Positions 24,040 to 46,961 of a stretch of DNA of 64,000 bases are shown here, in pieces. Position numbers and translations under genes: made by a program. The number at the start of each line of letters is the position of its first letter. Within the stretch, counting starts at the first letter, position 1. The stretch comes from Mesostigma viride. Taxonomy: Eukaryota > Streptophyta > Mesostigmatophyceae > Mesostigmatales > Mesostigmataceae. The notes under the pieces were generated by a model. The model was not told the DNA's origin and ran no database searches. It saw only the letters and a list, made by a program, of their open reading frames with translations. The stretch spans positions 389,093 to 453,092 of the forward strand of contig RPFO01000082.1 in assembly GCA_009746045.1 (NCBI GenBank). Direction: 5' to 3'.

Positions 24040-24515
24040 CGATGGGGAGGGTCTCGCTGCAGCTAGACCCTTTCGTGGATTCTAAAAGGGACATTTAGTT
24101 TAATGCAAAACTTTGGCGTCTCGCTGCAGCGAGACCCTCACTTCAAGCAAAAACAAATCATTTTTAGGGTGAGCGAAAACAAGCAACCTCCCATCATGCA
24201 AACATAAAAAAGTATACATTCCTTGGGGTCTCGCTGCAGCGAGACCCTAACGTCAAACAAAAACAAATAATTTTTAGGGTGAGCGAAGAAAGCCCACTCC
24301 CATCTTGCAAACATTAAAAGTCGACATTCGCAGGGGTCTCGCTGCAGCGAGACCCTAACACCGATACAAAAACAAATCATTTTAAGGGTGAGAAAAGAAA
24401 GACCCCCCCATCATGAAAACATGAAAAATTGACATTCCTTGGGGTCTCGCTGCAGCGAGACCCTTACGTCAATACAAAAACAAAATTCCGAGGGTCTACC
24501 CGCAGCGAGACCCTT
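24040..24515. promoter_or_regulatory. Palindrome-bearing tandem array upstream of gene A (X)
   Basis: Six palindromes with arms like GGGTCTCG/CGAGACCC around CTGCAG lie at 24,049, 24,115, 24,226, 24,334, 24,442 and 24,492. Three of them are exact 22-bp palindromes spaced 108 bp apart inside a ~108-bp tandem repeat that also contains AAAACAAATCATTTTTAGGG. It lies in the 5' leader or first intron of gene A. Binding site for an element-encoded protein is inferred, not shown. Confidence 0.75.
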
Positions 24516-24530
24516 ACGACCACGTATAAA

Positions 24531-25515
24531 TACATGTGGGGGGGGATGCTATGTATAAATGCATGTGGGGGGGTGCTGGCATTAATAATTAAATGTGGGG
24601 GGGTGATGGCATGAATAAATAAATGTGGGGGGGTGCTGCCATGAATAAAAGAATGTGGGGGTGTGATGGCATGAATAAATGAATGTTGGGGGGTGCTGGC
24701 ATTAATAATTAAATGTGGGGGGGTGATGGCATGAATAAATAAATGTGGGGGGGTGCTGCCATGAATAAAAGAATGTGGGGGGTGATGGCATGAATAAATA
24801 AATGTGGGGGGTGCTGCCATGAATAAAAGAATGTGGGGGGGTGATGGCATGAATAAATAAATGCGGGGGGGTGCTGCCATGAATAAAAGAATGTGGGGGT
24901 GTGATGGCATTAATAAATGAATGTTGGGGGGTGCTGCCATGAATAAAAGAATGTGGGGGGTGATGGCATGAATAAATAAATGTGGGGGGTGCTGCCATGA
25001 ATAAAAGAATGTGGGGGTGTGATGGCATGAATAAATGAATGTTGGGGGGTGCTGGCATTAATAATTAAATGTGGGGGGGTGATGGCATGAATAAATAAAT
25101 GTGGGGGGGTGCTGCCATGAATAAAAGAATGTGGGGGTGTGATGGCATGAATAAATGAATGTTGGGGGGTGCTGCCATGAATAAAAGAATGTGGGGGGGT
25201 GATGGCATGAATAAATAAATGTGGGGGGGTGCTGCCATGAATAAAAGAATGTGGGGGGGTGATGGCATGAATAAATAAATGTGGGGGGTGCTGCCATGAA
25301 TAAAAGAATGTGGGGGTGTGATGGCATGAATAAATGAATGTTGGGGGGTGCTGGCATTAATCATTAAATGTGGGGGTGTGATGGCATGAATAAATAAATG
25401 TGGGGGGGTGATGGCATGAATAAAAGAATGTGGGGGTGTGATGGCATGAATAAATGAATGTTGGGGGGTGCTGGCATTAATAATTAAATGTGGGGGGTGA
25501 TGGCATGAATAAATA
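24531..25515. repeat. G-rich minisatellite array 1 (~31-bp units)
   Basis: Units like ATGTGGGGGGGTGCTGCC followed by ATGAATAAA, with variants (GATGGCATG, GGCATTAATAATTAA) arranged in a higher-order pattern. The G-run (5-8 G) is on the plus strand in every unit. Reading frames across it are repeat artefacts. Confidence 0.95.
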
Positions 25516-25519
25516 AATG

Positions 25520-27322
25520 ATACGTAGCATCACCCCCCCACATGTATTGATACGTACGTAGCATCACCCCCCACATGTATTGATACGTAGCATCACCCCC
25601 CACATGTATTGATACGTAGCAGCCCCCCCCATGTATTGATACGTAGCAGCACCCCCCCACATGTATTGATACGTAGCAGCACCCCCCACATGTATTGATA
25701 CGTAGCAGCACCCCCCACATGTATTGATACGTAGCAGCACCCCCCCACATGTATTGATACGTAGCAGCACCCCCCCACATGTATTGATACGTAGCAGCAC
25801 CCCCCCACATGTATTGATACGTAGCAGCACCCCCCACATGTATTGATACGTAGCAGCACCCCCCCACATGTATTGATACGTAGCAGCACCCCCCACATGT
25901 ATTGATACGTAGCAGCACCCCCCACATGTATTGATACGTAGCAGCACCCCCCCACATGTATTGATACGTAGCAGCACCCCCCCACATGTATTGATACGTA
26001 GCAGCACCCCCCCACATGTATTGATACGTAGCAGCCCCCCCCACATGTATTGATACGTAGCAGCACCCCCCCACATGTATTGATACGTAGCAGCACCCCC
26101 CACATGTATTGATACGTAGCAGCACCCCCCCACATGTATTGATACGTAGCAGCACCCCCCACATGTATTGATACGTAGCAGCACCCCCCCACATGTATTG
26201 ATACGTAGCAGCACCCCCCCACATGTATTGATACGTAGCAGCACCCCCCACATGTATTGATACGTAGCAGCACCCCCCACATGTATTGATACGTAGCAGC
26301 CCCCCCCACATGTATTGATACGTAGCAGCACCCCCCACATGTATTGATACGTAGCACCCCCCCACATGTATTGATACGTAGCAGCACCCCCCCACATGTA
26401 TTGATACGTAGCAGCACCCCCCCACATGTATTGATACGTAGCAGCACCCCCCACATGTATTGATACGTAGCAGCACCCCCCACATGTATTGATACGTAGC
26501 AGCACCCCCCACATGTATTGATACGTAGCAGCACCCCCCCACATGTATTGATACGTAGCAGCACCCCCCCACATGTATTGATACGTAGCAGCACCCCCCC
26601 ACATGTATTGATACGTAGCAGCACCCCCCCACATGTATTGATACGTAGCAGCACCCCCCCACATGTATTGATACGTAGCAGCACCCCCCCACATGTATTG
26701 ATACGTAGCAGCACCCCCCACATGTATTGATACGTAGCACCCCCCCACATGTATTGATACGTAGCACCCCCCCACATGTATTGATACGTAGCAGCACCCC
26801 CCACATGTATTGATACGTAGCAGCCCCCCCCACATGTATTGATACGTAGCAGCACCCCCCCACATGTATTGATACGTAGCAGCACCCCCCCACATGTATT
26901 GATACGTAGCACCCCCCCACATGTATTGATACGTAGCAGCACCCCCCCACATGTATTGATACGTAGCAGCACCCCCCCACATGTATTGATACGTAGCAGC
27001 ACCCCCCCACATGTATTGATACGTAGCAGCACCCCCCCACATGTATTGATACGTAGCAGCACCCCCCACATGTATTGATACGTAGCAGCCCCCCCCACAT
27101 GTATTGATACGTAGCAGCACCCCCCCACATGTATTGATACGTAGCAGCACCCCCCCACATGTATTGATACGTAGCAGCACCCCCCACATGTATTGATACG
27201 TAGCACCCCCCCACGTGTATTGATACGTAGCAGCACCCCCCCACGTGTATTGATACGTAGCAGCACCCCCCCACATGTATTGATACGTAGCAGCACCCCC
27301 CCACATGTATTGATACGTAGCA
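25520..27322. repeat. C-rich minisatellite array 2 (~29-31-bp units), inverted to array 1
   Basis: About 60 units of CACATGTATTGATACGTAGC plus AGCACCCCCC. The reverse complement shares the core ATGTGGGGGGGTGCTG with array 1, so the two arrays face each other at ~25,517. Length variation in the C-run shifts the frame between units, so the long open frames on the minus strand are not genes. Confidence 0.95.
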
Positions 27323-27325
27323 GCA

Positions 27326-27482
27326 CAATTTTAGTCAGCCTACCATCCACGTTGCGGCAAAAGATCACCTTTTTTTGTGTTTCGGCAAAATGAAGATTTC
27401 TTGCAAACTATCGTTATGCAGGCAGGTAGCAACGTCCGATGTTATAATCCGGCAGGTAGCATGCAAACGTCGAAACGATATG
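27326..27482. repeat. Direct repeat, left copy (~157 bp)
   Basis: Begins ACAATTTTAGTCAGCCTACC and ends CATGCAAACGTCGAAACGAT. A diverged copy lies at 27,892-28,050 with 409 bp between. No coding content. Confidence 0.85.
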
Positions 27483-27891
27483 AAGGGGAAAAAAAGCATC
27501 AAACAGGAGCACCGATTAGAAACGCAGCAAATGCAGTATGTGCACATCTACACCTATAACCTAACCAGACCAAAGGCATAGCAAACATGGAAAGGGTGAC
27601 CCAAGTGAAAGCCTAGCACCACCATGATCGACATGTGCGAGACCAAGAAACGCTCCATGGCAACTAGACTAAAGGGATGGATGCCAGATGTGGATTAGGA
27701 TCGGCTTAGCTGACTCTACCGAGATGTCTGCAGGGTTTAGCTAGCAACGAAAAGAAGGAAGCCAGACATTTTTATCACTCTTGCTGCAACATAGAGTTTC
27801 TTGCGATGGCAGCAAGGACATGTCTTCGCCCAGCTGGCTAACTGTGTCGTCGGCGTGCATGCGCTGTTTAGTTGCCGTTTTTGATAGAACA
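27483..27891. other. Spacer between direct repeats, no gene seen
   Basis: Ordinary non-coding sequence. Could be an insertion or simply part of a tandem segmental duplication. Confidence 0.4.
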
Positions 27892-28050
27892 ATTTTAGTC
27901 AGCCTACCATCCAGGATGCGGCAAAAGCTCACCTTTTTTTCGTTGTGCGGCGAAAGCAGACCGATTTCCTTGTAAACTTCCGGCACCAGGCAGGTATCAA
28001 CGTAGGATTTTATAATCCAGCAGGTAGCATGCAAACGTCGAAACGATATG
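27892..28050. repeat. Direct repeat, right copy (~159 bp)
   Basis: Second copy of 27,326-27,482 with scattered substitutions and small indels. Confidence 0.85.
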
Positions 28051-28371
28051 GCAGCTCGTATCAGCTATGGGGTCTCTCTGCGGCTGCGCTTCTTTTTCGA
28101 TGGGCGATGGGACGGTCGCAATTCGCAAAACGGACGCGGCGTCACAGGGCTGAACGGTATTGAAAAAATTGGAAACGTGGCATCCTCGTTCCTCCCCACG
28201 GAACTGAAAACTGGAAGCGCGGCGCTGGTGCAAAAGCTCGATCCCATCTTTTGGAACCAAGCTAGCGGATTGGACGACATCCAATATGCCGTCACCCGTG
28301 CTTGTGGCCGCAGGTATAAAAAGAGACGACCTCCAGCCCATTTACCTGGGAACATTCGGATGTTTGGCTGA
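28048..28371 (+). CDS. Possible small coding region or leader exon, unknown
   Basis: A 107-codon frame from ATG (MAARISYGVSL) includes a degenerate palindrome at its start (28,069-28,085) and a stretch of ordinary composition (GVTGLNGIEKIGNVASSF). A donor-like CAG/GTATAA follows at 28,313. Joining it to the exon at 28,790 would hit a stop, so it is not an obvious gene B exon. Function unknown. A GGTTCGATTCC-like box (tRNA T-arm) lies nearby at about 28,409. Confidence 0.2.
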   Translation: MAARISYGVSLRLRFFFDGRWDGRNSQNGRGVTGLNGIEKIGNVASSFLPTELKTGSAALVQKLDPIFWNQASGLDDIQYAVTRACGRRYKKRRPPAHLPGNIRMFG

Positions 28372-28539
28372 CATCGTTACCATGCGAAATGTACAATGAG
28401 GTTCTGGGTTCGATTCCTGGTGTGGTCATGGAAATAAATTTTTTTCTGCACATCTACTGAAATCAGTCATAGCACCAAACGGTCACGCTGCAGCGAGACG
28501 CTATAGCCCTGGAGGCCGCTGATAAACCTGACATCCGGT

Positions 28540-28789
28540 GTCTTACTATCATAGATTGCCGAACTATATAATAATAATAGTCTATACCACTTTTTCTTGT
28601 AAATGATTTACTAAATAATGATTCTATATACTTTAACATACCATATTATTAAAGTATGTGGAATTTAACCATGCTATTCACAATATATTATAAAATCTTT
28701 TGCAAAATATACTGTAATTAGTATATATATTTTCTGATAAACAATTTTATCAATGCTACTGTGTTATTTTTGTTATTCTCGCCATGCAG
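28540..28789. other. AT-rich segment before gene B, probably intronic
   Basis: Strongly AT-rich (TATATAAT-like runs) compared with its surroundings and ends in an acceptor-like CGCCATGCAG at 28,789. It is best read as an intron in the gene B 5' leader. No open frame. Confidence 0.4.
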
Positions 28790-28822
28790 GTATCTGAGTG
28801 TTCTGGGAGAACTAATAAGAGA

Positions 28823-31800
28823 ATGAGCCGCGAAGGTGAGGAAAACCTGAAATCTTTTCGTCCTTATTGGGGTCTCTCTGCAGCTAGACCATTTATAACC
28901 ACAAGCAATAGCTTAAATTCAAGGGTCTCGCTGCAGCTAGACCCTCTTTATGGTTGCTATAAAATTAATGAATCAGAAGTCTGTGATTTAACAATCGCAC
29001 GCCGCAATGAAGGGTCTAGCTGCAGCGAGACCCCAATCTTGGTCGGGGTATGCTAAGTTCACCACATCAGGTAATCTTTTCGTCTAACGGAAAAAGCCCC
29101 TCTAAGGGTCTAGCTGCAGCTAGACCCCAATCGTGGTAAAAAATGATACACTTTCGAACTTTGTCTGTAATTGTCGCTTTTCCCAACGATACTCGATTTG
29201 CATGGATTTCGTTGTGCCGGTCGTCATGGCATGCAGCACGCGAACGGGTGGGAGTTTTCGCCCTTGCGTCCGGTCGTCCAGGATTCAGTGCAATTAAGTT
29301 GAACACCGGGACGAAGCAGTCAACTGGCGCAAAAAGGGTTTTCGGAGATGAGAACCAGAATCCAGCGCAGCCTGAAGCCAAGGAAGTCAAGCGGCCGGGA
29401 GAATACTCGAAATCAAAGAGGGTTATTGGGGAATATTTCGCTGACCAGGCGTTTGAAGCGGCTCAGGCGATGACAAAACCCGAGGGGCGGGGGCCGGCTT
29501 TCGACCAGATGATTGCTGGCTTTAACTCTAGGGCCGCTGAACTAGGTCACGGGAAGTATCATGAGGAGGCGAAAAAGCTTTACAATCAGGAGCGGATGGC
29601 AGAACTGAACAGGTTCTGGGTGGCTCGGATTAACGGCTTTTTTGATGGTCTGACCAAAAGCGACGCAGACAGAGACGTCAGGATGGTGCTGATGTCCACG
29701 CTTTACTGTGGTGACGACTTGGAGAAGGAGTTTTCGGCCGCGGAGTTGGAGAACCTGACGGGGATGGACGCCAAGAAGATTCGCGGAATTCGCGCGATAC
29801 GAAGGCAGCAGAAGTTGGACTACCTCAGACACGCGCAGGCTCGCAAGGGGCGCCCTTTGCCGCAATTCGTGATTGACGCGATAGTGGACGCGTGGATGCA
29901 CGATGATGAGTCGCGCGCCTCCTCCCAGATGAAGGATGTCAAGCGCACTTACAGCAGGGAGGGTCGTGGCAATCACGGGGTGCTCGTCGCCGTTGAGGGA
30001 GCGCGCTATTACATGACCTCCAAGGAGGACATGTACAATCACTTTCTCGAAAAGCATGCGTACTGGAACAAAAGGAGTAACCAGTATGATAAGGACGTGG
30101 GCATTCACGTGGGCTACACGACCTTCTGCAAATACGCGCCCGATTGCATCAAGGGCAAGTGGAAGGAGAGGAACCTGTGCGCGTGTGAGAAGCACGTCAC
30201 CATGCAGTCGGCCATGGGGGCGTGGACCAAGCACTCCAATGCGAACCACGGCAAGAACTGCAAGTGTGGCGCGGAGTGTGCGGGATGCTCCAAGTACAGA
30301 GAGCCGGACGGTACTTGCGGAATGTGGAAAGCCATTCACTCGACGGACTGGATCAAGCACTTTCACTGCCCGGTGTCCGCCGAGACTGACGGCAGGGATA
30401 ACGGGCTGCGTGAAGGGGGCGGAATGGGCGGGGGGATGGAAGAGGGGGAGGGGGAAGATGAATGGCGGGGACGGGACCTGGAAGACCTCGACATTTCTGA
30501 GAGGCTGGTGGAGGACGAAGATGGGGTGCCGAGGACGGAGAGGGTTCACCGCATACTGAAGATGGCGTGTGTGGAGGGGTTCTGTCCTGAGGAATCATGC
30601 GGCATCCATAATAACTGGGTGCAGTGTGATCGGGACAAGAATTCCACGGAGATTCTGAATTGGTTCAAGTTCGAGATGGTGGAGCAGACTGTGACCCGAC
30701 GGGTGAATGTGAGTTGGTTTCGATTTTATTTCTCCGTTAATATGTTGTTGACTTTTTTTTTTGTGACCTATAGCTGCAGCGAGACCCTTTGTGAGTTGCA
30801 GTTATCTTATCGAAATGCGATTTTATTGCAAATCGAAACTGTCTGCGGACCTTTGCGAAACAGGGCGAGACCGATGGCAGGGCGGCGAAGAAGGTGAAGC
30901 GGCCCGAGCAAGTCCAAATGAGGTCCACCCCAGCTGAGCTGCGGGACGAGATTCTTAAGATGTGGGACAAGTTCACCGTGCACTGCTTTACGGCCTGGTC
31001 GCAGGCGGATACAATCAAGGATCGGGAGAAGAATCTGAGAGAGGGGGACGTGCTCGTGCACGGCGACTGGGCCGAGAACTACGAGAACAGCAGCTACGTC
31101 CAACTGCAGTCGCAGTACTTCCACAAGCGCAGCCACATCCTGATGCCCATGATCGTGCGTTATCGGCTCAACGGCGAGCTGGAAAAGCGCGTCTTCTTTT
31201 TCCTGGGGGATTCCAGTATCAAGCGGGGCGAGCGCGCACTCGTATACGCTCTTCGCAAGATTCTGGAAACCCTGCGGGTAGAAGTAGGGGTAGAGGTGCG
31301 AAACCTGTACATGTGCTCGGACAACTGCGCGGTGCAGTTTAAGTCCAGGTACGTGATTAACCAGATTAACGGTCTGCTCATGGGGGATCCCGACCTGCAG
31401 GCCTTTGAGTTCCACTACATGGGGGAGCAGCATGGGAAGGGGGAGGTGGATGGTCAAGGAGCGAAGTGCAAGTGCGTCTTGAGGGAAATGCAGAGGATTC
31501 CCGAAAACCAGCACATACTTGAGACCCACCAGCTAGTCGCCTACTTGAACCAGAACTGGCAGGGCGGCAAGACATCGAGCAGGGAGTCGGCCCGCGCGCG
31601 GGCCGAGAACGTCACTCGCCACTTCTTCCTTTTACCCCCGGTACGGAATTTTGTGTTATTTCAGGTTTTAAGACGTCAACTGCCGCTGTTCTATAAAAAT
31701 TCAAACCCAATAAAGGTATCTCTGCAGAGAGACCCTATATACTGTCCATGGGTTGCTTTTCTTTTAGGTATGAAATTTCGCTTGTTCTTTCGGTATGAAG

Positions 31801-32869
31801 GGGTCTCTCTGCAGCTATACCCTGTGTCGAATTTCGATCACTTGATATCTTGTCGTACGTTGTTATTATGATTCGAATGGGGTCTCTCTGCAGCTATACC
31901 CTGTGTCGAATTTTGATCACTTGATATCTTGTCGTACGTTGTTATTATGATTCGAATGGGGTCTCTCTGCAGCTATACCCTGTGTCGAATTTTGATCACT
32001 TGATGTCTTGTCGTTAATTTTTTTTTAAGGGGTCTCTCTGCAGCTATACCCTGTTTTATTGGTTTTTGGTCAATTTTGCTAATTTGAACGGTATTCTTTT
32101 TGTCCTAACTATTTGATGACAGGACGTCGAGTCCGGCCGACGCGCGGAGGTTGAGGAGGTGCCTGGCATCAAGAAGGCGCATTGGTGGCGACTGGACAAG
32201 TCCGACCCTGGCCTTTTGATGATTAGGCGCTATTCCTGCTACTGTCCGCCCTGTTTGGCTGGGCGGTTTGAGGGATGTCTAAGCGAGTGGTCGTTTATCA
32301 TCGAGTTCAATGATGCAGGAAGCTCGATGAAAACTGTCCGTTTGCTGCCACCGAGCCAGCCCAACCCTCCGGTTCGCATGGTGACGCGGGGGGAGCAGCT
32401 GAAGGACAAGCGGGAGGCGATGGGCCGGCAGATGAGACTCCACGACTATGTGGCAGTTCCATCGGACAAGGACACGGATCACGATCCCATCCACCCGTTC
32501 TGGTTGGCTGAGGTTGTAAGCGAAGCCGGGCCGATCGTGTTAGACGAGAACTTCGAGAGGTGGGTCGAGGGCCGGAACGGACGGGAGAAGGAGCTGTTCC
32601 TCGCCGGGAACGGCATTCTTCCCGTTCGGATTTGGAAGCGGGATAAGCATGACCCCCTGCATTTCACGCTCAACGTTGAGGATTGGCCACCGTCACGCCA
32701 GCCCGAGCTTGTGAATTGCTATCTCTGCGTCGCTCCGGCTCTCCGGCTAGAAGCACGCGTGCGCAGCGACGGAATGTGTGCCGACATCAGGATGAGCAAG
32801 GAGCTCGACAAGTGGCTTACTACGCTGGTGATCAAGGATGAAGCCCCGGAGGGGCCGGCACCGACTTAA
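28823..32869 (+). CDS. Gene B: Cys-rich DDE/RNase H-like transposase-type protein, 4 exons
   Basis: Exons 28,823-28,835, 29,237-30,708, 30,864-31,640 and 32,123-32,869 join in phase (1,0,0) to 1,002 residues without a stop. The tiny first exon is chosen because its ATG is the first after an upstream in-frame stop and its phase fits the acceptor GGCATGCAG exactly. An alternative start is ATG 29,143 without that splice. Visible parts: helical N-terminus; Cys/His cluster (about residues 299-355, FCKYAPDC, CACEKHV, CKCGAECAGC) and GFCPEESC (about 452); then HGDWAENY (D563), CSDNCAVQFK (D648), HGKGEVDGQG (E689 or D691); and a C-terminal YSCYCPPC cluster. This order matches an uncharacterised transposase-like family I recall from animals and protists. 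It presumably moves element X. Confidence 0.85.
29237..30708 (+). CDS. Gene B exon 2 (N-terminal helical region and Cys clusters)
   Basis: 490 codons. Contains a VTREGR-type linker region, a helix rich in RRQQKLDYLRHAQARKG (possible DNA-binding), and Cys/His groups likely to bind zinc. Also a GGGMGGGMEEGEGEDEW acidic spacer. Donor GTGAGT at 30,709; the following intron has one palindrome at about 30,768. Confidence 0.82.
30864..31640 (+). CDS. Gene B exon 3 (catalytic-type core)
   Basis: 259 codons carrying the three acidic motifs (D563, D648, E689/D691) with spacing 85 and 41 residues, as in an RNase H-like nuclease fold. Begins GETDGRAAKKVKRPEQVQ with a basic, NLS-like KKVKRP. Donor GTACGG at 31,641. 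Confidence 0.85.
31641..32122 (+). promoter_or_regulatory. Gene B intron 3 with tandem palindromes
   Basis: A 482-bp intron holding one palindrome at ~31,712 and four in a ~79-bp tandem repeat (31,800, 31,879, 31,958, 32,029). Each has arms GGGTCTCT/AGCTATACCC around CTGCAG and is followed by CCTGTGTCGAATTT(T/C)GATCAC. Expansion of one palindrome-bearing unit inside an intron. Confidence 0.85.
32123..32869 (+). CDS. Gene B exon 4 (C-terminal region)
   Basis: 248 codons plus TAA. Starts DVESGRRAEVEEV. Contains the Cys cluster YSCYCPPCLAGRFEGC and a folded tail ending EAPEGPAPT. The paired Cys motif after the catalytic core is typical of the same transposase-like family. A palindrome follows the stop at about 32,884. 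Confidence 0.82.
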   Translation, partial: DVESGRRAEVEEVPGIKKAHWWRLDKSDPGLLMIRRYSCYCPPCLAGRFEGCLSEWSFIIEFNDAGSSMKTVRLLPPSQPNPPVRMVTRGEQLKDKREAMGRQMRLHDYVAVPSDKDTDHDPIHPFWLAEVVSEAGPIVLDENFERWVEGRNGREKELFLAGNGILPVRIWKRDKHDPLHFTLNVEDWPPSRQPELVNCYLCVAPALRLEARVRSDGMCADIRMSKELDKWLTTLVIKDEAPEGPAPT

Positions 32870-33165
32870 ATTAACAAGAAATTGGGGTCTCGCTGCGGGT
32901 AGACGACGCCCTAGTTTCGGCTCGTATTATATCTTTAGAGTGGGGCTTCAGTAGGGTGTAAAAAGGTGGCCGCATATATTGTATATATTTTTGGAGATCT
33001 TTCTGTGGTCAAGTTTAAGGGTAGTTGATAATTTTTTGCGGCCTTCAATTAACAGTTATTTTTTACTGCAACATAATTTTATGCTGTATATTTAAATAAT
33101 GATAAGGATTTCGATATTTTTTTGCACAATCTATTCGACATTTGTTTCTGCATGTCGAGAATTTA
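32870..33165. other. Gene B 3' region, AT-rich, no gene
   Basis: Holds one degenerate palindrome (32,884-32,905) and AT-rich sequence with AATAAT-like runs. Presumed 3' UTR and intergenic spacer. Confidence 0.4.
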
Positions 33166-33370
33166 TTGCTCCACCCCCACAAAAAAAATCGTTCCGGAAC
33201 TGTTCGAAGCGAATAGCACTGACAGGATTCGAACCCGGGTCCACATTAATGTTCGGAGTGAGGTAGGCCAGCCATCATGTTCCGCACTGAAATCTGGCTC
33301 GGGTCCGATCCCTTCCATTGCTCTTCGCTTCGAACAGCTCCGGAACAAGTTAGGTTTGGGGTTGGAGCAA
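33166..33370. mobile_element. 205-bp MITE with TA target duplication
   Basis: Ends TTGCTCCAACCCC-type form ~50-bp imperfect inverted repeats (33,166-33,217 with 33,319-33,370, both containing CTGTTCGAAGCGAA) and are flanked by TA on each side. TA duplication fits the Tc1/mariner class. The middle contains, on the minus strand, GGGTTCGAATCCTG, a tRNA T-arm or Pol III B-box look-alike. Confidence 0.72.
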
Positions 33371-33695
33371 TAAATACTTATTTGCCGGGCGCAGTTGTCA
33401 TTCCGCCTAGTACAATTGCGTCACTAGTACAATTTTTGTCTGGGTACGGTACGAACCAATAACGCAATATTTAGTATCTAATCGCCGCTGCTCTTGCTGA
33501 ATTTTATCCGGAAGCTGAAACAGGTGTCCGGTGAAGCGAATACTAGTGACTGGTGGTCGTGCCCTTCCATTACTCCTTATCGACAAATTTTGGGTTCTAC
33601 CTGCAGTTATAACCCTTGCGCGTCTGGCTGTCGGGGTCACCAATTTCCTGTCGATTGCAAGCAGCCAACCTTGCCGAAATTTAACACTGTCACAA

Positions 33696-34133
33696 ATGGA
33701 GCAGAGCAATATTTTCGGTTCTCAGCATACCTATGTGATGGTCGACAAAAATGAGCACGCTGCAAACATCAGAATTGATGTAGAGTTGCTCGGACCTTCT
33801 GCACAGTGGGGTGCAGGTGTCATTGCGTTCGGCAATGGCATGATCGATCTGGTGCCACCCGATTCAGATTTGAACCCTGCTTACCAATGCGTGCCTGACA
33901 ATCAGGCGAGAGTGGTGGTGGAGAGCACGGAAATTCCGGGCTCTCCCAATGTATCAATGATGCGCCTGAGGGCCGAGGCCCAGCAGGAGTTCCTGGCTGC
34001 TGCGGAGAACGGCGGGGCCAAGTGGAACACCAAAATGTATACAGGCGAGCCTCCCAACTACAGGGGAGACCAGTACCAGGGAGTGTACTCCTTCGGCGAT
34101 TTTGACATCGACGGATGGGGCACCTTTTTCTAG
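33696..34133 (+). CDS. Gene C: small unknown protein of element X
   Basis: 145 codons from ATG 33,696 to TAG at 34,131-34,133. The frame is open further upstream to about 33,531, so the start may instead lie in an upstream exon. Sequence MEQSNIFGSQHTYVMVDKNE, then IRIDVELLGPSAQWGAGVIAFGNGMIDLVPPDSDL and an acidic/aromatic tail (YSFGDFDIDGWGTFF). It looks like a small globular protein with normal composition. Lies on the same strand as gene B, 830 bp downstream, inside X. No family recognised. Confidence 0.5.
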   Translation: MEQSNIFGSQHTYVMVDKNEHAANIRIDVELLGPSAQWGAGVIAFGNGMIDLVPPDSDLNPAYQCVPDNQARVVVESTEIPGSPNVSMMRLRAEAQQEFLAAAENGGAKWNTKMYTGEPPNYRGDQYQGVYSFGDFDIDGWGTFF

Positions 34134-34517: not shown

Positions 34518-34581
34518 TCGGACGATTGAAATTAGCGTTTTTTTCTTGCAAAAATCTACCCCATTCCGCGTGGGACCACCC
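34518..34581 (-). repeat. Right terminal inverted repeat of element X
   Basis: Ends CCGCGTGGGACCACCC, followed by GGTT. Matches 13,461-13,533 in reverse with one internal gap and one mismatch. Confidence 0.85.
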
Positions 34582-36796: not shown

Positions 36797-36955
36797 GTGA
36801 GAAACAGTTTTTACCCCCATTAGTGTGCGTGTTTTTTTTAACGGTTTCGTTATTCCTTATCTCTGCTAAGCTCGTCTGACCATGAATGGGTCATTTCGCA
36901 GAGTGACCCTAACCTGAACCAACAAGTATGCTTTTCCCTGTTGTTTTGATTTCAG

Positions 36956-37259: not shown

Positions 37260-37396
37260 GTGAGCTAATAATTTTTTCGCGCGTCAGTTAGTCCTTCGTT
37301 CTGTTTGAGATTTTTTTATGAAGGGTCACTTCGCAGAGTGACCCTAAACTTTTTTTCCGATTATGCTTTTTTTTCGTTTTGTGGACCTGTGTGCAG

Positions 37397-38459
37397 CCGA
37401 TCCAGTTGAGGGGCTTGGAAACTTGGAAGTCATGGTTGACGACTTACGAAAAACATCTGAACGATGACGCCAAGTCGTTCTTGAGCACCTTTGTGTCGAA
37501 GGAGATCGAAGTTGCGATCGATGACGGTGTCTGGCATGAAAGGATCTCAGTCGGGTCTGATGAGAATGTGAACCCTTGGAGTGATCCAACACTTCGTGAT
37601 CTTTTGTTCGAAGTCATGGGGCGGAGCCTTCGAGGCAAAAGGTTAAAGGGGAAAGATTGCATCTCTTTTCGACACCTTTGAGTTGCTTGTTACCGAGTGC
37701 GGGTCAACGATACCCGACGCAGCGGATGTTACAGCTTATGTTCCTCGAAGCCTGCTCGTCTGGATCAAGCTGTCTTGTGCGACCAAACAGTACTGCAAGG
37801 ACACGAGACAGCACCCATTGTCACACGAGTATTTTGACATCATCATATCTGTCTGCAGGTGGGAAATGTACCAGGTCCTAGAGCAGGGGAAGACAGGTGA
37901 GGATTGGGACACCTCCCCGCTGACGGAAATGGATGTCAATCTGCTCTTGAAGAAAGGGTTCAAGGCTGCACAGTTCGACTGGGATGTCTTCGGCGACTTT
38001 CTGGTCGCCATGGACCACTCGGTATCTCCCGAGTTGTTCAGGGCTGGTTCGGAAGTGATTGAAGATTTGGATGGGGTTAGATCGCACTTCCTTTCGTCGT
38101 ATTCAGTGTGGATGGCGCAGTTTAGGGTGAACCCAGACCCTATTCTTCCGAGTCGAGCTGTTGAATTGTTTCTTCAGTTGTGCGAGGATGAGATCCTGCG
38201 TTTTCGTCAGAGTGGGGAGTTCGACATGGCCGGACAGTATGAGCCCCCACGAAAGGAGGTTGTCGCATGGCTTGAGTACAAGGGGATCGACGACTGCCTG
38301 TCGTTAGTGACGGCGAACATAAACGAGAAATCATGGAGTCAGGACATGCTATCTCACTTGATTCTTCGGACGTTTTTCGAAAACGAACTGAGCCACACAA
38401 CTCCATCTGAGATGTGGCCGATCGGACAAGTGTTGCGGGAGTGGAGATTTGACATTGAG
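37397..38459 (+). CDS. Gene A copy 3 exon equivalent to exon 2 domain
   Basis: Begins PIQLRGLETWKSWLTTYEK and ends WPIGQVLREWRFDIE before GTAATT. One frame change lies near 37,655. Homologous over its length to 21,538-22,587 but much diverged. Confidence 0.75.
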
Positions 38460-38575
38460 GTAATTATTGACATTTGTGTACATTTTTATTCAGTCCGTTT
38501 AGATTGTGTTGTGTATTTCTTTTGTTGAAAATTGTTACTAACGATCAACGCATTTCTTTCTCTCCTTCCCGCCAG

Positions 38576-39064
38576 GAGGGTGACATTCCACGTTTTGAGG
38601 GACAAAGTCCTTCAGCGTGGAACCCGGAGGTAAGCAAATGCCGCTAAAGGTTCGGGGTCGATTTGTGAAGATAGAATATTAAAGAAATAGTTCCTGTTTT
38701 GACTGACTTTGTATATTTATCTGAACGCACGTTTCGTCTTGCAGGATGACGATCAACCTTTCGAAGAGGTCGAAGGGATGGGGACGGAGAACGTAGAGGT
38801 AGGAAATTTGTTTCATTTTACTGTTAAAGCTTAGGGTTGGGGTCGTTTCGCAGAGCCACGTTAAAACAAAACTAATGCTCGTTTTTTTTATGTCATCTGA
38901 ATTATTATTATTTTTTTTTCATGCAGGAGGTGGACGAGGAGGAAGAGGAGGAGAAGGAGCAGGAGGTGGACGAGGAGGAAGAGGAGGAGGAGCACGAGGA
39001 GGAGGAGGAGGAGGAGGAAGAAAATGAGCCCGAGCCAACTCCGAAGGGGAAGGGGAAGGCAAAG
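38576..39064 (+). CDS. Gene A copy 3 small acidic exons
   Basis: Three phase-0 exons: 38,576-38,629 (EGDIPRFEGQSPSAWNPE), 38,745-38,798 (DDDQPFEEVEGMGTENVE) and 38,927-39,064 (EEEEEKEQEVDEEEEE then EPTPKGKGKAK). They take the place of exons 3-5 of copies 1 and 2. Confidence 0.7.
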
Positions 39065-39198
39065 GTTTGTACAATGTTTTTTAAGTTTTTAACGCTGAAG
39101 GTCGCGCTGCAGAGCTAGGATGCCAGAGTTCAGATTACTCTTCTTAATACATTTCGCTTCATGTGTATGTTGTGTGTTGTTGGTATACCTTCCAGCAG

Positions 39199-39707
39199 GC
39201 TAAAAAAAGGGCGACGACGACACTCCAAGCAGCTTACCTAAAGCTTATTGCCAGAAGGAAGAAGGTGCAGACTCTGTGATATTGGCGAACTCATCCTAGG
39301 CAATCCCCCTAAGGATGTTACGATGGGTGCCGGGGAGTTTCGCAAGTATCTCACCCAACTACGCGTTGAGGCGGCGGCCGATTTCGCAATGCAATCGACA
39401 CCTTCAACGGTGACCTGGCCTATGATTTTGTCAACCAAGTCAAGTCCAAGGGCACCGAAAAGTTCAAGTGGAAACCAAAGGCGTACACGGAGGCGAAGGT
39501 GGACAAGGTCATCAAGTTCATGAAGTGGGATCTCAAGAGAAGGGATCGTGAACGGGCGAAGCTGCTTGAGGGTCAGGCAAAAGCGTCCAAAAAGAAGAGG
39601 GATGCGGATAAAAAGGAGAAGGGGAAGGATAAGGGGGAGGATGACGCGGCCGGGGGGAGAAGGGCGGGAAGGGAAAGAAGGGGAAGAAGGCGGGAGAAAA
39701 GGAAGAG
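39199..39707 (+). CDS. Gene A copy 3 exon equivalent to exon 6, frameshifted
   Basis: Contains GEFRKYLTQLRVEAAADF in one frame, then TFNGDLAYDFVNQVKSK and YTEAKVDKVIKFMKWDLKRR in another. The break lies near 39,390, the same part of the protein that is broken in copies 1 and 2. Confidence 0.65.
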
Positions 39708-40110
39708 GTGCGTTTTTTGCGGAATTTAGATTTAGAGGGGTAGCTCTGTGGAGTGAACCTTTTTACCTTCTCCGTGCTTTGCACCCTATTCGGTATTTTT
39801 TGTCTGCACGCCGACTATTTGCAAACGTTAAACTATTTATTGTTTTCCTGTCTCATCTTCGTCAATGCCTTCCTCCAGGGTGGCGAGGGGGAGAAAGGCG
39901 GAAAAGGAAAGAAGGGGAAGAAGGCGGGAGAAAAGGAAGCGGTGCGTTTTTGGTGATTTAGATTCAGAGGGGTAGCTCCGTGGAGTGACCCTTTTTACCT
40001 TCTGTGTTCTTAGCACCCTACTCTGAGATTTTCCTACGCTCGCGGACTATATGCATACGTTAAACTATTTATTGCTTTCTTGTCTCATGTTCGTCAATGC
40101 CTTCGTTCAG
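39690..40110 (+). repeat. Tandemly duplicated exon-intron unit in gene A copy 3
   Basis: The end of exon 39,199-39,707 plus its intron (39,708-39,878) is repeated as the small exon 39,879-39,941 plus intron 39,942-40,110. Both exon pieces encode KKGKKAGEKE. Both introns begin GTGCGTTTTT, carry a GGGGTAGCTC-type palindrome and end near CGTCAATGCCTTC. The duplication adds 21 codons in phase. Confidence 0.82.
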
Positions 40111-41270
40111 GGTGCCGAGGGGGAAGGAGACGGTGACGGAAGGTTGGCCGGCAATGATGCCGTTTTTGCACTCGTCAAGGAGATGCTTAACTACGTCGAA
40201 GCCAGGGGCAAGGCGCCGGCGTCGGATATATTAAAGTGGCCTACCTTCTCCCCTTTTCTTGAGCTTCTGAAAGCACTTTCAAAGCTCTTCAAGGAGGGGA
40301 TCCTGACGAGTAGTGGAAAGGTGGACAAGGAGCCGATCATCAAAGAGTGGAAGATGGCAACGACCGTGGACTCCGAGAAGGAGATCAGGGACAAAGCCAT
40401 TCGGGACGCGAATGCTGTGCGGGAATCCCGTTGGATTCGACCGAGTGACTTCATCGATACCGGTTGCAATAGCATGCGCATTCACACCGTCAACGGGCTG
40501 ATTTTGCCTGACAACATGAGGCAGCGGTTGCTAAGCGATGAGGTGTTCAGGGAGAACGGGCGCATCTTGCTGAATGCAAAGACAAACAGTTTGCATTTTA
40601 AGGTGTGCATCCCTGTGTGGCAGTTCGCCTTTCAAGCGCTTGCGGAAACCAAGCCAAGCCTCTTCGCCAAACACATCACGTCCTCTGGCCCTTACCGGGA
40701 TTGGCTGAAAAAATGCCATGGCGCTAGGACTGACGCGGAGTTCGTGGGCTCGCGTTACTTTCGCCCCTTGTCCGACAAGGAGATTGAGAAGTATCTTGGA
40801 ACCAAGTCCACCGCTTCTTTCCTCAAGAGAGGTGTTGAGTTCCGGACCTATGCACGAGTCGGGGAACAAGACGACGTTCTGCCCTTTGATTTTCAACCAA
40901 GGGAGGTCTTCAGCCTAATAAGCCAGGCCTCCTTAAAGGCATTCGACCCAAGATTTCACGAGAACATCCTGATGGCGAATATCTCGTTCTTCGATATGCG
41001 GTGGTCGACGGAAACCACTATTTCAAGGGTTTAAAGTCTTTCAAGCAATTGGAGGGGGAATGGACGCCCGGTGTGACACATGTTAAGAAACTAATGTGTG
41101 AAGGGGGGGCAGCGTCTGAGAACGCGAAGGACAGTGCCGCGGCGGCTAAACTTTTCTCATCCCTCATGGAACAATTCCATACTGGGTACGGGGGAACGAA
41201 CGTCATTCTGCTTCGGGGGGCCGACCTTCTTCCAAATTGGGACGAGTGTAAAAAGTTCCCGGAAATATCT
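40111..41270 (+). CDS. Gene A copy 3 exon equivalent to exon 7
   Basis: Encodes NDAVFALVKEMLNYVEARG, FSPFLELLKALSKLFKEG, VGSRYFRPLSD and GGTNVILLRGADLLPNWDE. A frame change lies near 40,984 (FHENILMANISFF versus VVDGNHYFKGLKSF). The next intron (41,271-41,602) has three palindromes, as does the equivalent intron of copies 1 and 2. Confidence 0.75.
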
Positions 41271-41602
41271 GTAAGTGGTAGTTCTATCTATGGCAATGGT
41301 GACGCTGCAGTTCCACCACTTCGTCGTGTTATGTCGAGTAAGGGTCGCACTGTGGAGTGACCATGTCAAAAGTCTTCCTTTATCATGCATTATAAATGCG
41401 GGAAGTCGCACACAGAAACGACAATGGCAGTCAAACTCTCATCCCGACATATTTCTGGGGTGGTTTCGCAGAGTGACCCTAACTTACCGATTTCGGCGCT
41501 GAAGACCATTTTTCGCGCTCCCGTGCGTTCATAACGTCACGCTGCAAGTCGACCCTTGAATTGTTCTTGTGTGTCAATTTTTCGTTCCTCTGTTCGTGAC
41601 AG

Positions 41603-42211
41603 GAGGTTGGGAAGAAGAAGCTGGATCGCCTATTCGAAATCTCCAAGGGCGCCAATGCCGAAGATCAGGCGGTAGCGGATCGGACGCTTGGGCAGGCGCT
41701 TCTGGATGTTTGGAATTACAACAGGCTGTACTTGCACGGCGTCGTGAAGCAGGGCAAAGGGCATTTTATTCCCGATGGCCATTACACGAACCTGCTGGCG
41801 TACATCCTGCCGGCCACCAAACAATCAGTCGGGAGGGAAGGGAGTTTGGAGGGGAGTAAGGAGGATAAGGGGGAGTTGAGGGAGGAAGAAGGCGAGCGGA
41901 AAAAAAACAAGGCCCAACCTTCCCAAATTTCAAATTACAATCGAGTTCTGGCGAACACCTTCCTGCGCCTCACAAAGGCCAGGCCGGATGATGAGAATGA
42001 CGTCACACCAGCTTCTGAGGAGACTATGACTCTCAGATGCCGGTTCGCTAACGCCGAGGGCACCAAGAAGGGGCAAAAGGTGTCCTGGACGTCTGTAAGG
42101 AACCTGGCGTCGTTTCCGATGATGGACGCTGTGTGTGAATGCATCATGAGTGGGGAGGTTGGGCCCGAAAAGCTGTCAAAGTTGGTGGAGTTGGCCAAGG
42201 ACGTACTTGAG
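41603..42211 (+). CDS. Gene A copy 3 exon 8 part 1, before CACTA insertion
   Basis: Begins EVGKKKLDRLFEISKGANAED, with ADRTLGQALLDVWNYNRLYLHG and KKGQKVSWTSVRNLASFPMMDAV. Broken after KDVLE by the element at 42,212; the codon series resumes at 45,174 with CVRQFILIKFQEK. Confidence 0.8.
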
Positions 42212-43269
42212 CACTCTGGGCTCGAACTTGGGTAATAGTGGGGTAAAATGAGGTAAAAGTGGGGTAAAAGGTAAAAAATTATTACCCTCAAGGTAATAAT
42301 GGGGTAAAAGGTAATTGTGGGGTAATTTTTTACCTTGGTTTTACCTGGTTTTTACCCTCCAAGGTAGAAATGGTTAAATATTACCCGTGTTTTACCCTCC
42401 AAGGGTAAATGTGGGTAATTTATTACCATAGTTCTACCCTAGGGGCTAATATAGGGTAATATCTGGTAATATGAGGGTAATGGAGGCTAAAACCTTATTG
42501 GTATGTATTATGTGATCAAAATGAACTACCTTCTTGGGTTTCCTGCGGTGTTGCATAACTCTGGGCCATGATTTTTTTTTTTTTAGACTACATCATTTGA
42601 AACAACCATTGCTAGCAGAACTAGGGTTAGCATCTCATGTGTCCCTAATGAAAAACCGTTGGTCCGACAGTTCGTAGAAAATCGTGATGGAAAAATCAGG
42701 CATTCGCTCGTACTCCGGAGATCTTTCGATCCTAGGTACACTACGCGCGAAGCTAGTACCACCGGTGACCGGATATACTTAAGTATATTATCCGGCCCTC
42801 GGCCGCTATACTATCTCGGTCGGGTAATGTTCGGAGCGCAGCGAAGGAGCTCCTTACTTATTGAAAAGGGACGGAAACGAGTTATCAGCGGCGACAGACG
42901 ACGGACGAAGTAGCTGCGACGGGCCACGGGCCACGGGCCACTAGCCTTACCCACCCCGCGGCAACCAACGGTCGGCCCACCAATTTAGCAGGCCAGCGTG
43001 AAATTTCAAATGATGGCCGCGGATGACGGTATGGCTGTCGACAGCCACCTGTTGTAGGTCGTGCCTGTTGGGCAAGCTACACTTTCATTGTTGGACGCTT
43101 GGAAACGGGGGGTTAACATGAAAGATGCTTAGGTATTTGATGACGGGTCTTTTGAAAATCTGGACACTGGGTGCCGTATGCTCTTAAGAGGAGAAGATTG
43201 CTGGGACCAACTGTCAGGGTAAGAAGGTGGCACCGGTAGTGACGCCTGGGTAAGGTGAGGTTTTGTTTG

Positions 43270-43830
43270 CAGGGATATGGAACGGTGTCTCATGGATATT
43301 TTGGCTTCCAGGCGGTCTGTTTCCTTTGTCTTCACGTCAGGAGCGGATGGGGGGGGGGCAGTGTGCTTACCGGGCGGTTCCATAACAACATGTTCCGCCA
43401 TGCACATATGCCACCGTCTTTTTCGATCGGTTTTGTTTTATTTCGATTTGGGACGCTTTGGAACGTGGTTGCATGCACTACTATGCTTCGAGGCCGTCTG
43501 TTTGCGTTGTGTTTCCGTCAGCAGCGGGAAAGGAGGCCCAGTTTGCTCAGCCATCACATTCGTTGCTTCACTTCCCGGATGGCAGGTATGCCTCCCGCTC
43601 TTTGTTGCTGTATTTCGATGGCGGATGTTTTCGAACGCCTTGCGATTCTTTTGCCTGCACCCACGCAGTATTTTCCCATTGTGGTTCGCTCAGCCACGGG
43701 AAGGGAGGCACCGTTGTCTTACCGAGCCTCTCCGGTGCGTCATTCCCTGTCGTGCAGGTGTGCCTTCGTTCTTCTAACTGCCGGGTCTATTGTATTTCGA
43801 CTTGGAGTGTCATGAAATGTCCCTCAACTG
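43270..43830. repeat. Degenerate ~185-bp tandem repeats inside the CACTA-like element
   Basis: Three related blocks share phrases such as GCGGTCTGTTT, GTCAGCAGCGGGAAAGGAGG and TATTTCGA. They give overlapping open frames that are not supported as genes. Confidence 0.6.
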
Positions 43831-44069
43831 TTTTGTTGGCAGATTTTCGCTATTGCAGGTACCGCTTCTCCATGTGTTACACCATTGGGACATGGCTGCA
43901 ACTACCCCAGGCACCTGCCGCCCACCTTACTTAGGCCAACTCATCCCCGTTCCTGTTTGCTGCCAATGCGTGGGCTGTGGTTGTGAAAGCAGGTATGCAT
44001 GCCACCTGCGGCATGGCCTGGACACGAGGTGGTATCCTGAGCGTCAAGCCCTGAGGTAAAAGGCCGGGG

Positions 44070-44478
44070 ATATAAAAGCGAGCATGCTCCCTTAGTGTGC
44101 GGCCCTAGCATGCTTCCTTAGTGTGCGGCCCTAGCATGCTTCCTTAGTGTGCACCGCTAGCATGCTTCCTTAGTGTGCAGCCCTAGCATGCTCCCTTAGT
44201 GTGCAGTCCTAGCATGCTTCCTTAGTGTGCAGCCCTAGCATGCTCCCTTTGTGTGCATCGCTAGCATGCTCCCTTAGTGTGCGGCCCTAGCATGCTCCCT
44301 TAGTGTGCAGCCCTAGCATGCTTCCTTAGTGTGCATCGCTAGCATGCTCCCTTAGTGTGAAGCCCTTATATCATGCTCCCTTAGTGTGCATCGCTAGCAT
44401 GCTCACTTAGTGTGCGGCCCTAGCATGCTTCTTTAGTGTGCAGCCCTAGCATCCTTCCTTAGTGTGCATCGCTAGTTT
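44070..44478. repeat. ~26-bp minisatellite inside the CACTA-like element
   Basis: Roughly 15 units of CTAGCATGCTTCCTTAGTGT plus GCAGCC or GCATCG. Confidence 0.92.
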
Positions 44479-45173
44479 CAGGTTTTTGTTTTTGTTTTGT
44501 TTTTTGATATTTAGGGAAGTTTCCAGCACGTCCTTTTAATTTAACTTAACTTAGTCCTTAGTATGATTCCCAAGTGCTCATGCATTCTTAGGTTGTGTGC
44601 ATCCCAATTAGGAACTAACCAAGTTTCCATCTCATGCTTTTGTGTGCTTGATTTTTTGTTACTTGCTGCAGGTGCTAAGGTTGTTATGACGGGGCTAGCT
44701 TGCAAGCTAGTCAATTGACTACGACAAGCAATGGTCGCTTGACATAATGAAGACCTCATGATGAAGACAATATTTGAATTCTATTTTTTCAATAAAAAAA
44801 ACTCTTGGTTGTTCATGTGCATGTGTGGAAATTTTCAAGTACATTTGAACAAGCATGTATGAATTACCCAAAGGAAGGATGAGGCAAATGTAGGGTAGCA
44901 TAGGGTAATCTAATGTTCACCTAAAATATTACCCTTTAAAAACTGAGGTAATTATGGGGTAAAATGGGGTGAACATGTACCACACAAGTAACTACCCCAC
45001 TATTACCTTGGGTAATAGTGGGGTAATAGTGGGGTAATAAAATTACCCTAAAAATTAGCGGCAAATTACCCTGGTAAAAGTGGGGTAAATGTGGGGTAAT
45101 TTCATACTGATTTCTTACTGAAATTACCCCACATTTACCCCACTATTACCCCAAGTTGGAGCCCAGAGTGGAG

Positions 45174-46961
45174 TGCGTTCGCCAATTCATCCTTATTAAG
45201 TTTCAGGAAAAGCCCGACTTGGATGGCGAATGTAAGGGGGGGGCTGATATGGAGTACAAGGCCTCTCGCTTATTTGAAGAGGTGTTCGGCTTACGACTAC
45301 TTGGGCGGATGCCAAGGAACAAGGATGTCGTCGATCGATTCCTTGCATTTTGGGAGAAGGCCGTCATCATCACGCGCAATGTCGCCTACCTCTTAAAGTC
45401 CGAAGGTCTTGCCAATCACCTAAGGATTCCGAGAAAGGATCTGATGGATAGCAAAATCGATCTAGTGGATCTCCTCGACAAAACCGCTCCGAACTTCAGC
45501 ATGAAGGGTTCGCACGGCCTTCTGGACAAGGACTTGTATCTCCACTATCAAAAAAAGATGGAAGGAGGGGAAGGGAAGAAGGAGGCGGTGGTTGAGGCGA
45601 AGGAGAAAGTTGCAGGGAAAGGGGGGGAGAAGGTGGAAGAGAAAAGTGCTGAGCCGATTGAGTATAACTGGCGCAGCATTTCCTGGGATAAGATGACCGT
45701 CTGGTATTCTTCTCATAGTCTCCCTAAAGGCGGCCCTGACAGGAAGAAGGCATTTGTGAGGAGGGTGGCGGCGGAGGTGGCGGTGGGCGACGGTGAGGGC
45801 TTCCCATCCACTTTCGCGAGGCAAGACGATGGCCTGACGCCACTACCGTGCTGTAGAATCCTGAATTTGGATGGTGAGTTCGGCCGCAAGTGGACGTCCT
45901 TCAAGGACTTCTGGTGGGGTGACCATGACCTCTTTATGGTTCCTCCAAAAAAGACAACTGTCGAACGAGCTTCCGGTTACCACAGGAAGCTTATCGAGCT
46001 AGCGACGCAGTTTTTCGAGGAGTTGCGTCCCATCGTGGTCGTTTTTGGCGGAAAGAAGTCATTGGATGGCTTCGAAGACTTACTGGTTCGGATGGGGAAG
46101 ATGCCTGACGTCTCGTGGACGTCATTGGCGAAGAAGAGGAAGGCTGAGGATGACGCGGAAGGAGATTCGGATGGGGACGAGGGAGGCGAGGGACAGGGAA
46201 AGGAAGGAGGGTCGACTCGCAGAGCGACGTCTACGGGGGGAGAGAAGTCGTCACCGCAGAAGACGTCTAAGGGGGGAGAGAAGTCGTCACCGCAGAAGAC
46301 GTCTAAGGGGGGAGAGAAGTCGTCACCGCAGAAGACGCGGGACAAAGGGAAGGGTGGGCAGCGGCCGTCTGTCCAGCCGCAGCCGGAGTCACACCCTTCC
46401 AAAAAGCTTCGAAAGGCAGTTGTTCAAATCTCGGACGACGAAGATGAAGCTGAGCCTGGCGCTTCTGCCCGGCCTGTCGCTCCTTCCGCGCCTACGCGCG
46501 TTTCAAAGTATCCCAAGAAAGAGCTTCGAAGGCAGCCAGTCGAGTCATCATCATCCTCCTCCGAGGAGGAGGAGGAGGAGGGGGAGGAGGGGGAGGAGGG
46601 GGAGGAGGGGGAGGAGGGGACGAGAGTGATGAGGAGGAGGAGGAGGAGGAGGGGGAGGAGGGGGAGGAGGGGGAGGAGGGGGAGGAGGGGGACGAGAGTG
46701 ATGATGAGGAGGAGGAGGAGGAGGGGGAGGAGGAGGAGGAGGGGGATGACGACGAGGACGACGAGGAGGGGGATGACGACGAGGAGGAGGAAGATGGAGG
46801 GAGGCGAAGGGGTGATGGAAGGGCAAGGGGTGGAGGGGCAGGAGGGTCAACTCGCAGAGCGACGTCTGAGGGGAGGAAGAAGCCTGCCGCGCCCTCCAAG
46901 GCTTCCGGCTCGTCTCGACCCAAGACAGCTGCTACTCGAGCTCAGAAAGGAATAACAAAGG
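45174..46961 (+). CDS. Gene A copy 3 exon 8 part 2, after CACTA insertion
   Basis: Resumes CVRQFILIKFQEKPD, then KAVIITRNVAYLLK, LRIPRKDLMDSKIDL, a segment ending RPIVVVFGGKKSLDGFEDLL, three copies of GGEKSSPQKTSK, a hydrophobic-acidic AVVQISDDEDE motif, YPKKELRRQP and a long Glu/Gly acidic run. The frame slips in that run (~46,618, one G short). Two second-type palindromes are in the coding sequence (46,210-46,230 and 46,844-46,865), each encoding GGSTRRATS. Confidence 0.78.

Follow-up and report, generated by a model that had tools for sequence, protein, structure and literature searches.

Two lineage-specific palindromes mark nested transposons of Mesostigma viride and may be read by an element-encoded protein

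Short palindromes of two types are scattered over neighbouring transposons in one region of the Mesostigma viride genome, and each type keeps to its own element. What might read them, and to what effect, is the question raised by this locus. The region analysed, here called the window, is a stretch of 64,000 nucleotides (C557:389,093-453,092 in a 440-Mb eukaryotic assembly). It holds three elements of one kind, nested: X and its inverted sister X' both lie inside a diverged relative, E3. The favoured reading, which we consider rather probable, is that the palindromes are sites for an element-encoded homodimeric DNA-binding protein that marks its own lineage, with anti-silencing as the likeliest effect.

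A preliminary description of this DNA had reported dozens of palindromes of about 22 bp between 24,049 and 46,865. A position weight matrix (PWM) trained on the sites themselves gave 61 sites above 14 bits in the window; 10 order-1 Markov shuffles averaged 0.0. The palindromes are thus real, and they span a wider region (3,761 to 46,844) than was noted. Two weak sites (11,971 and 14,462) scored only 8 bits each. Each palindrome is 22 bp long and consists of two 9-bp half-sites, approximately GGGTNNNNC, that flank a 4-bp YGCR core. The commonest letters gave a half-site consensus of GGGTCT[AC]GC in X and GGGTC[GA]CTC in E3. The arms vary more than the fixed sequences first given for them; what held was a set of near-fixed positions, 4, 6 and 9 in X and only position 4 in both lineages.

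Position 6 separated the two lineages. In a listing of 63 sites, it was T in 75 of 76 half-sites to the left of 34,581, the right end of X, and in 1 of 50 to the right (the 38 left-hand sites include one at 20,167, which sits in a 1.7-kb insertion and not in X proper). The switch fell between the sites at 33,593 and 34,603, as expected from the earlier placement of it near the terminus of X. Non-redundant sets of 22 X and 20 E3 sites were then compared, with the X' copies, the repeated array units and site 20,167 excluded. Position 4 was T in all 84 half-sites, and position 6 was T in 43/44 half-sites of X and 1/40 of E3, a separation that none of 20,000 label permutations equalled. Leave-one-out typing assigned 42/42 sites correctly. 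This bore out the claim that each type is confined to its own element. Sites with T at position 6 are called T-type below, and those with G or A, R-type.

The geometry was largely constant. All 17 convergent pairs of X-type half-sites (within 30 bp) had a gap of 4 bp, as had 8 of the 11 E3-type pairs. Pairing between the arms, in a test of moderate power on the 22 X and 20 E3 sites, did not exceed that of shuffled arms: Watson-Crick pairs numbered 147 versus 146.3 in X (P 0.47) and 109 versus 112.0 in E3 (P 0.83), and with wobbles included the values were 149 versus 149.7 and 134 versus 133.9. The half-sites of one palindrome vary independently. The E3 half-sites between 34,603 and 46,865 were asymmetric with respect to transcription, position 6 being G 14, A 5 and T 1 times on the left and A 13 and G 7 times on the right.

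The elements themselves were delimited by their ends. X is a complete transposon of 21.1 kb on the plus strand (13,461-34,581), with terminal inverted repeats (TIRs) at 13,461-13,484 (minus strand) and 34,558-34,581 (plus strand). Its TIR is GGGTGGTCCCACGCGG, and the sequence common to both ends is ACCCCATTCCGCGTGGGACCACCC. The target-site duplication (TSD) GGTT stands on both flanks, and in L024, which is another copy of E3, the host element, the target of X is unoccupied and holds a single GGTT. In X, the minus strand carries gene B and the plus strand genes A and C; 30-bp arrays fill the centre. X' has its gene-B half at 1-12,993 (plus strand, 99% identical to X) and its gene A and C half to the left of the window, where a TIR was found at C557:370,157; its TSD is AGCA. 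E3 has the TIR GGGCCCACTTCG / GGGCCCACTTCGAATGTTCCG at C557:352,464 and 436,987 (window 47,895), and its TSD is GGCC. Inverted ends and a 4-bp TSD were thus found in all three elements, as expected for TIR transposons, and 8/8 short derivatives also had a 4-bp TSD.

These ends changed the boundaries drawn in the preliminary description. It had X running from 24,049 to 34,581, and the TIRs, the 4-bp TSD and the empty target showed this to be wrong: its copy 2 is the minus-strand half of X. Its copy 1 is half of X'. Its copy 3 corresponds to E3's right half; the left half of E3 lies outside the window, to its left.

Most sites were found in non-coding DNA (26/28 in X and 23/25 in E3). PWM scanning placed T-type sites in the gene B leader and a 108-bp array beside it (24,049, 24,116, 24,226, 24,334, 24,442 and 24,492; 24,049-24,513), upstream of gene A (28,480, 28,870, 28,923, 29,012 and 29,106; 28,480-29,127), in the gene A introns (30,766, 31,714, 31,801, 31,880, 31,959 and 32,030, with four in a 79-bp array; 30,766-32,051), directly after the gene A stop codon (32,885-32,906) and in the gene C leader (33,593-33,614). 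The gene B introns, as modelled, held seven more (16,985, 17,071, 17,141, 18,494, 20,848, 21,305 and 22,661; 16,985-22,682). In E3, 12 R-type sites occupied the leader, mostly in a 58-bp array (34,603-35,328), and 11 the gene B introns (36,888, 37,120, 37,323, 38,840, 39,099, 39,738, 39,970, 41,297, 41,342, 41,458 and 41,534; 36,888-41,555).

The remaining sites were exonic (2/28 in X and 2/25 in E3). The T-type site at 15,214-15,235 encodes GSNRGET and aligns, at the peptide GGS[NT]R, with the E3 site at 46,209, one of two exonic R-type sites (46,209 and 46,844; 46,209-46,865). A palindrome was present in 15/21 introns, and these introns were longer; intronic sites lay at least 20 nt from the donor and at least 46 nt from the acceptor. 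The three tandem arrays contain one palindrome per unit and are mutually unrelated outside it, which argues that the motif was amplified more than once. Many other sites are single.

When X and E3 were divided into 18 slots, 12 were occupied in both lineages, 4 in neither and 2 discordantly (Fisher P 0.008, a value resting on the typed counts for slots delimited by hand after the data had been seen). Those filled in both are the gene C leader, the gene A 3' end, gene A introns 2 and 1, the gene A leader, the array upstream of gene B, the gene B leader, and introns 1, 5, 6 and 7 and exon 8 of gene B. Each of the three genes therefore has leader sites in both lineages. Empty in both were gene B introns 2 and 8 and the 3' ends of genes B and C; gene B intron 3 was filled in X only and intron 4 in E3 only.

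The introns around these slots no longer align. With palindromes masked, orthologous introns of X and E3 gave a lowest P of 0.045 among 11 comparisons, a value of little meaning across that many. This agreed with the proposal that position had been conserved while sequence changed. Equal numbers per intron had also been proposed, and this held in part. Presence or absence agreed in 6 of the 8 gene B introns, too few to carry weight alone. The donor-to-site distances of four introns were matched as well as in the observed order by 2 of 24 permutations. The intron before exon 8, said to have three in each lineage, has three in X and four, all weak, in E3.

The types also segregated in a genome-wide collection of exact matches. 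The T-type pattern with a CTGCAG core occurred 1837 times (reversed-pattern control, 0) and the R/R pattern 699 times (control, 13); the T-type pattern is stricter, fixing the core and position 5, so these two counts are not comparable as abundances. A third type (C/C) showed no excess (11, and 11 in the control). Mixed T/R palindromes were found at 83 places (42 + 41; control 12 + 5, 17 in total). On contig C1, where both type listings are complete, 32 T-type and 26 R-type sites were found, and 44/44 neighbours within 25 kb were of the same type (shuffled mean 21.9, maximum 33 in 10,000). Random mixing of the types within single elements was not seen in the copies and contigs examined. Whether host introns are equally rich in palindromes was addressed through genome-wide density: the 1837 exact X-type sites in 440 Mb amount to about 4 per Mb, whereas X, with its 21 kb, has 28 listed sites.

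A prediction was made before the sequence concerned was looked at, namely that the gene A half of E3 would lie to the left of X' and carry R-type tags. It was found so. The PWM gave nine sites above 12 bits in C557:349,093-370,192, with G or A at position 6 in 16/18 half-sites; the two T half-sites were both in a tandem pair in intron 2 of gene A. The sites fill slots known from X: the gene C leader, the position after the gene A stop, gene A introns 2 and 1, and upstream of gene A. L024, the further copy of E3 (98% identical), had 24 sites above 14 bits, with G or A in 48/48 half-sites.

Conservation was compared between palindromes and their flanks. Across 64 site-copy pairs of X-family copies, 7/1408 bases differed in palindromes and 97/5588 in flanks (P 1.2e-4). 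Since the copies had been found through the palindrome pattern, this conservation is partly ascertained; with the sites outside the search pattern, the values were 6/902 and 56/3535 (P 0.02). The site-copy pairs are not independent, so these P values are rough. The ratio of observed to expected CpG was 0.87-1.02 in the gene regions of X and E3, 0.58 in the centre of X and 0.89 in the right flank, and gave no clear record of silencing.

Miniature inverted-repeat transposable elements (MITEs) with X-like ends and X-type palindromes were found in 9 of the 15 loci examined (L005-L012 and L015). Two palindromes were present in 8/9 loci and one in L009. Seven MITEs matched the right end of X over 131 bp at about 94%. 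Among the eight with both ends found, the TSD was 4 bp in every case, and the lengths were 585-588 bp in seven and 1,340 bp in one. The MITEs were also found through the palindrome pattern, and the zero variation in their palindromes was excluded from the evidence. In this family of about 586 bp (loci on C1 and C2 of G000), the paired X-type palindromes are usually 225-227 bp apart. One copy (L010) lies within gene C of an X-family element.

The fixed spacer, the dyad, the independent half-sites and a type that follows the element and not the host together suggest a dimeric, element-encoded DNA-binding protein. Each monomer would read one 9-bp half-site, the two half-sites facing each other across the YGCR spacer, and position 6 would be the main letter distinguishing self from other. 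Such a protein would cover its own family's non-coding DNA (leaders, introns, 3' ends and arrays) and leave relatives untouched. A host factor is disfavoured as the reader, since it would not be expected to leave two lineages of one nucleus with mutually exclusive types, unless one lineage had arrived horizontally. Gene B is the first candidate for the binder, since no other part has diverged as far as its exon 2 (about 25% identity between X and E3) and gene A looks like a transposase. By analogy to the VANC proteins of Arabidopsis, the protein would most likely serve to keep the DNA of its own element open. Anti-silencing is our first guess because VANC targets are likewise scattered through non-coding DNA and amplified in tandem, and it is placed ahead of accessory sites for transposition and of transcriptional autoregulation. 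It would also explain the tag on gene-free MITEs.

The sites might instead serve transposition, as accessory sites used by the transposase or by a helper protein, with the type tracking the lineage through co-evolution of ends and transposase. The TIR sequences do differ between X and E3, and the X MITEs retain both TIRs and palindromes, usually two. The location of the sites disfavours subterminal accessory sites: they are scattered over introns and leaders, all keep about 950 bp or more away from the TIRs of X (first 14,462, last 33,593), and the pairing of ends needs no conserved slots at one per intron. We regard this explanation as unlikely. Slightly less likely in our judgement is transcriptional autoregulation, by which an element-encoded regulator on leaders and introns would set the expression of genes A, B and C. 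It would account for the leader sites at each of the three genes in both lineages, but gene-free MITEs carry sites, most sites are far inside introns and one pair lies in exons.

Two further explanations concern the intronic sites. If the palindromes acted as RNA hairpins, read in the transcript for splicing or RNA binding, the frequency of palindromes in introns and the serine/arginine/proline-rich start of gene B, which recalls splicing factors, would make sense. So would the mismatches in E3 on the sense strand (35 G-T wobbles versus 16 A-C or C-A cells). Yet the arms do not covary in X or E3, with or without wobbles, the mismatches in X are mainly C-T, G-G and A-G, and sites are also found in arrays and MITEs. 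No Rfam family was matched at the gathering threshold. A structured RNA element was rejected since compensatory arm changes were not found, and we consider it very improbable, with the wobble excess in E3 staying unexplained. An origin of the palindromes as minute mobile insertions or relics of introners is scarcely credible, although many copies of one short sequence lie in introns and the introns that bear them are longer. The slots are common to two diverged lineages. Palindrome-masked introns are unlike each other within X, save one pair, and within E3, save neighbouring tandem introns. No flanking direct repeat of 3, 4, 5 or 8 bp was found at any of 42 sites (one had 2 bp and one 6 bp), and this candidate was rejected.

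Several observations weigh against a protein that tells the two lineages apart. Of the 83 mixed places, 67 are one sequence, identical to the E3 site at C557:354,768 (the others are one one-base variant, eight of an unrelated repeat, two X-type-like sites with one side changed and five others). The recurrent sequence at the eight places, GGGTCTCTACGCACTACAACCC, fits the mixed pattern and is a palindrome of neither type. At this locus, 3/68 E3 half-sites have T at position 6, one at 35,210 and one each at the tandem sites C557:354,768 and 354,886. The three E3-type pairs without the 4-bp gap are spaced at 14, 18 and 24 bp. The two E3 copies showed no extra conservation of palindromes (3/286 versus 6/1140 differing bases in flanks, 13 sites, P 0.91). 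Because the search for MITEs used the palindromes, it does not prove that they depend on the tag. Finally, gene B exon 7 was compared with 5.8 billion proteins, and none passed among the best 8000 candidates scored.

The gene models were based on conserved reading frames and GT-AG signals. Gene B of X (13,755-23,971, minus strand) was modelled with nine exons and GT-AG introns, all of phase 0. It is interrupted by the 1.7-kb insertion (18,822-20,529), which is missing from another X-family element, covered by L013-L015. This insertion is 72% similar to X' sequence at about 4,593-5,307; these are related inserts, one in each sister copy. Gene A of X (29,143-32,869, plus strand) is transposase-like and has three exons (29,143-30,708, 30,864-31,640 and 32,123-32,869), which match E3 gene A; its first exon and first donor were set by hand. 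Gene C (33,696-34,133, plus strand) encodes 145 amino acids. Amino-acid identity between X and E3 was about 25 to 65% by exon in gene B, 50 to 67% in gene A and 60 to 62% in gene C. In both lineages the first coding exon of gene B (22,781-23,971 and 35,400-36,796) encodes a serine/proline/arginine-rich segment followed by a charged, coiled-coil-like stretch.

The protein closest to gene A is P0001 (45% identity), with which it shares conserved acidic motifs, of interest for a possible RNase H-fold DDE transposase; neither had a Pfam match. A profile search with gene A matched P0002 (E 1.2e-12), and only through P0002, which matched Pfam DUF7869 below the curated cut-off (E 4e-4), is gene A linked to DUF7869 proteins. 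These matches place gene A in no named superfamily. The gene B exons had no Pfam match of note. Searches against solved structures gave no credible relative, viral contigs matched neither palindrome pattern nor genes A or B, and ARAGORN detected no tRNA gene.

The rest of the locus consists of insertions and array pieces. Close to its start, the gene-B half of X' is broken by an unmatched stretch of about 5.7 kb, which extends into the window to about 3,174. Between X' and X lies a piece of the central 30-bp array of E3 (12,994-13,460, by array comparison), and the insertion points of X and X' are both in or beside that array. Such 30-bp arrays (24,526-27,326, 12,992-13,441 and L022:8,660-10,000) fill the centre that separates gene A from gene B in each lineage and are palindrome-free. 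The right half of E3 (34,582-47,895, plus strand), with its leader array and gene B3, ends in a TIR at 47,875-47,895 (minus strand). A 2.9-kb insertion in its gene B (about 42,230-45,160) is missing from L024 and is edged by short GGGGTAA-type repeats. The modelled exon at 40,111-41,270 is out of frame. As E3 in the window is interrupted and at least one of its modelled exons is out of frame, its sites may be noisier. To the right of E3 are two copies (88%) of a repeat resembling a long interspersed nuclear element (LINE), at 58,793-60,337 and 61,452-63,015; similar pieces on both flanks suggest that E3 may have landed in such a LINE-like repeat.

Among known systems, the KDZ transposons (Kyakuja, Dileera and Zisupton), which are large, end in GGG-like sequence and have a transposase with a Cys-rich region, resemble these elements. 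The TSD of Zisupton is 8 bp, unlike the 4 bp found here, and no sequence match to KDZ tested positive. En/Spm (CACTA) is alike in the proposed role of its repeats: TnpA, which the element encodes, is believed to bind the many short subterminal repeats. Unlike in En/Spm, the sites here are not subterminal, the ends are GGGTGG or GGGCCC and not CACTA, and the TSD is 4 bp; membership was rejected on the ends and on the subterminal repeats.

The closest parallel is with VANC and the VANDAL elements of Arabidopsis, which the preliminary description had also named. In two reports, VANC targets include introns, intergenic and terminal non-coding regions, with short family-specific motifs and tandem repeats (PMC5735166, PMC10398659). 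The elements studied here likewise have a family-specific short motif that differs between related families of one genome, lies mainly in non-coding regions and is tandem-amplified. The target features described there fit, and silencing and its reversal would be carried over by analogy. The likeness lies in target features and is no assignment of the element to Mutator/VANDAL. Differences were also clear. The present motif is a dyad of 22 bp whose spacer is fixed, whereas the motif of VANC21 is YAGTATTAY, and the paper that gives it never uses the word palindrome. Matching single positions in two lineages and a 4-bp TSD also set the present system apart.

A search of the literature on palindromes in transposon introns and related systems found no description of such sites, which is weak evidence of novelty. 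We tentatively propose an independent, non-Mutator, VANC-like self-recognition. About a dozen orthologous slots would have been re-addressed between dimer specificities, chiefly through one base per half-site, while the introns were otherwise rewritten; sister lineages would coexist, even nested, without cross-recognition, and MITEs would ride along by means of the tag. If this is true, the system would suit the study of shifts in DNA-binding specificity, in that a single genome offers both lineages, sites of each type by the hundred, a main switch of one base, matching slots and natural MITEs as small substrates. How related elements avoid helping each other would become open to binding assays, and sequence-specific self-recognition by transposons would not be peculiar to the VANDALs of Arabidopsis.

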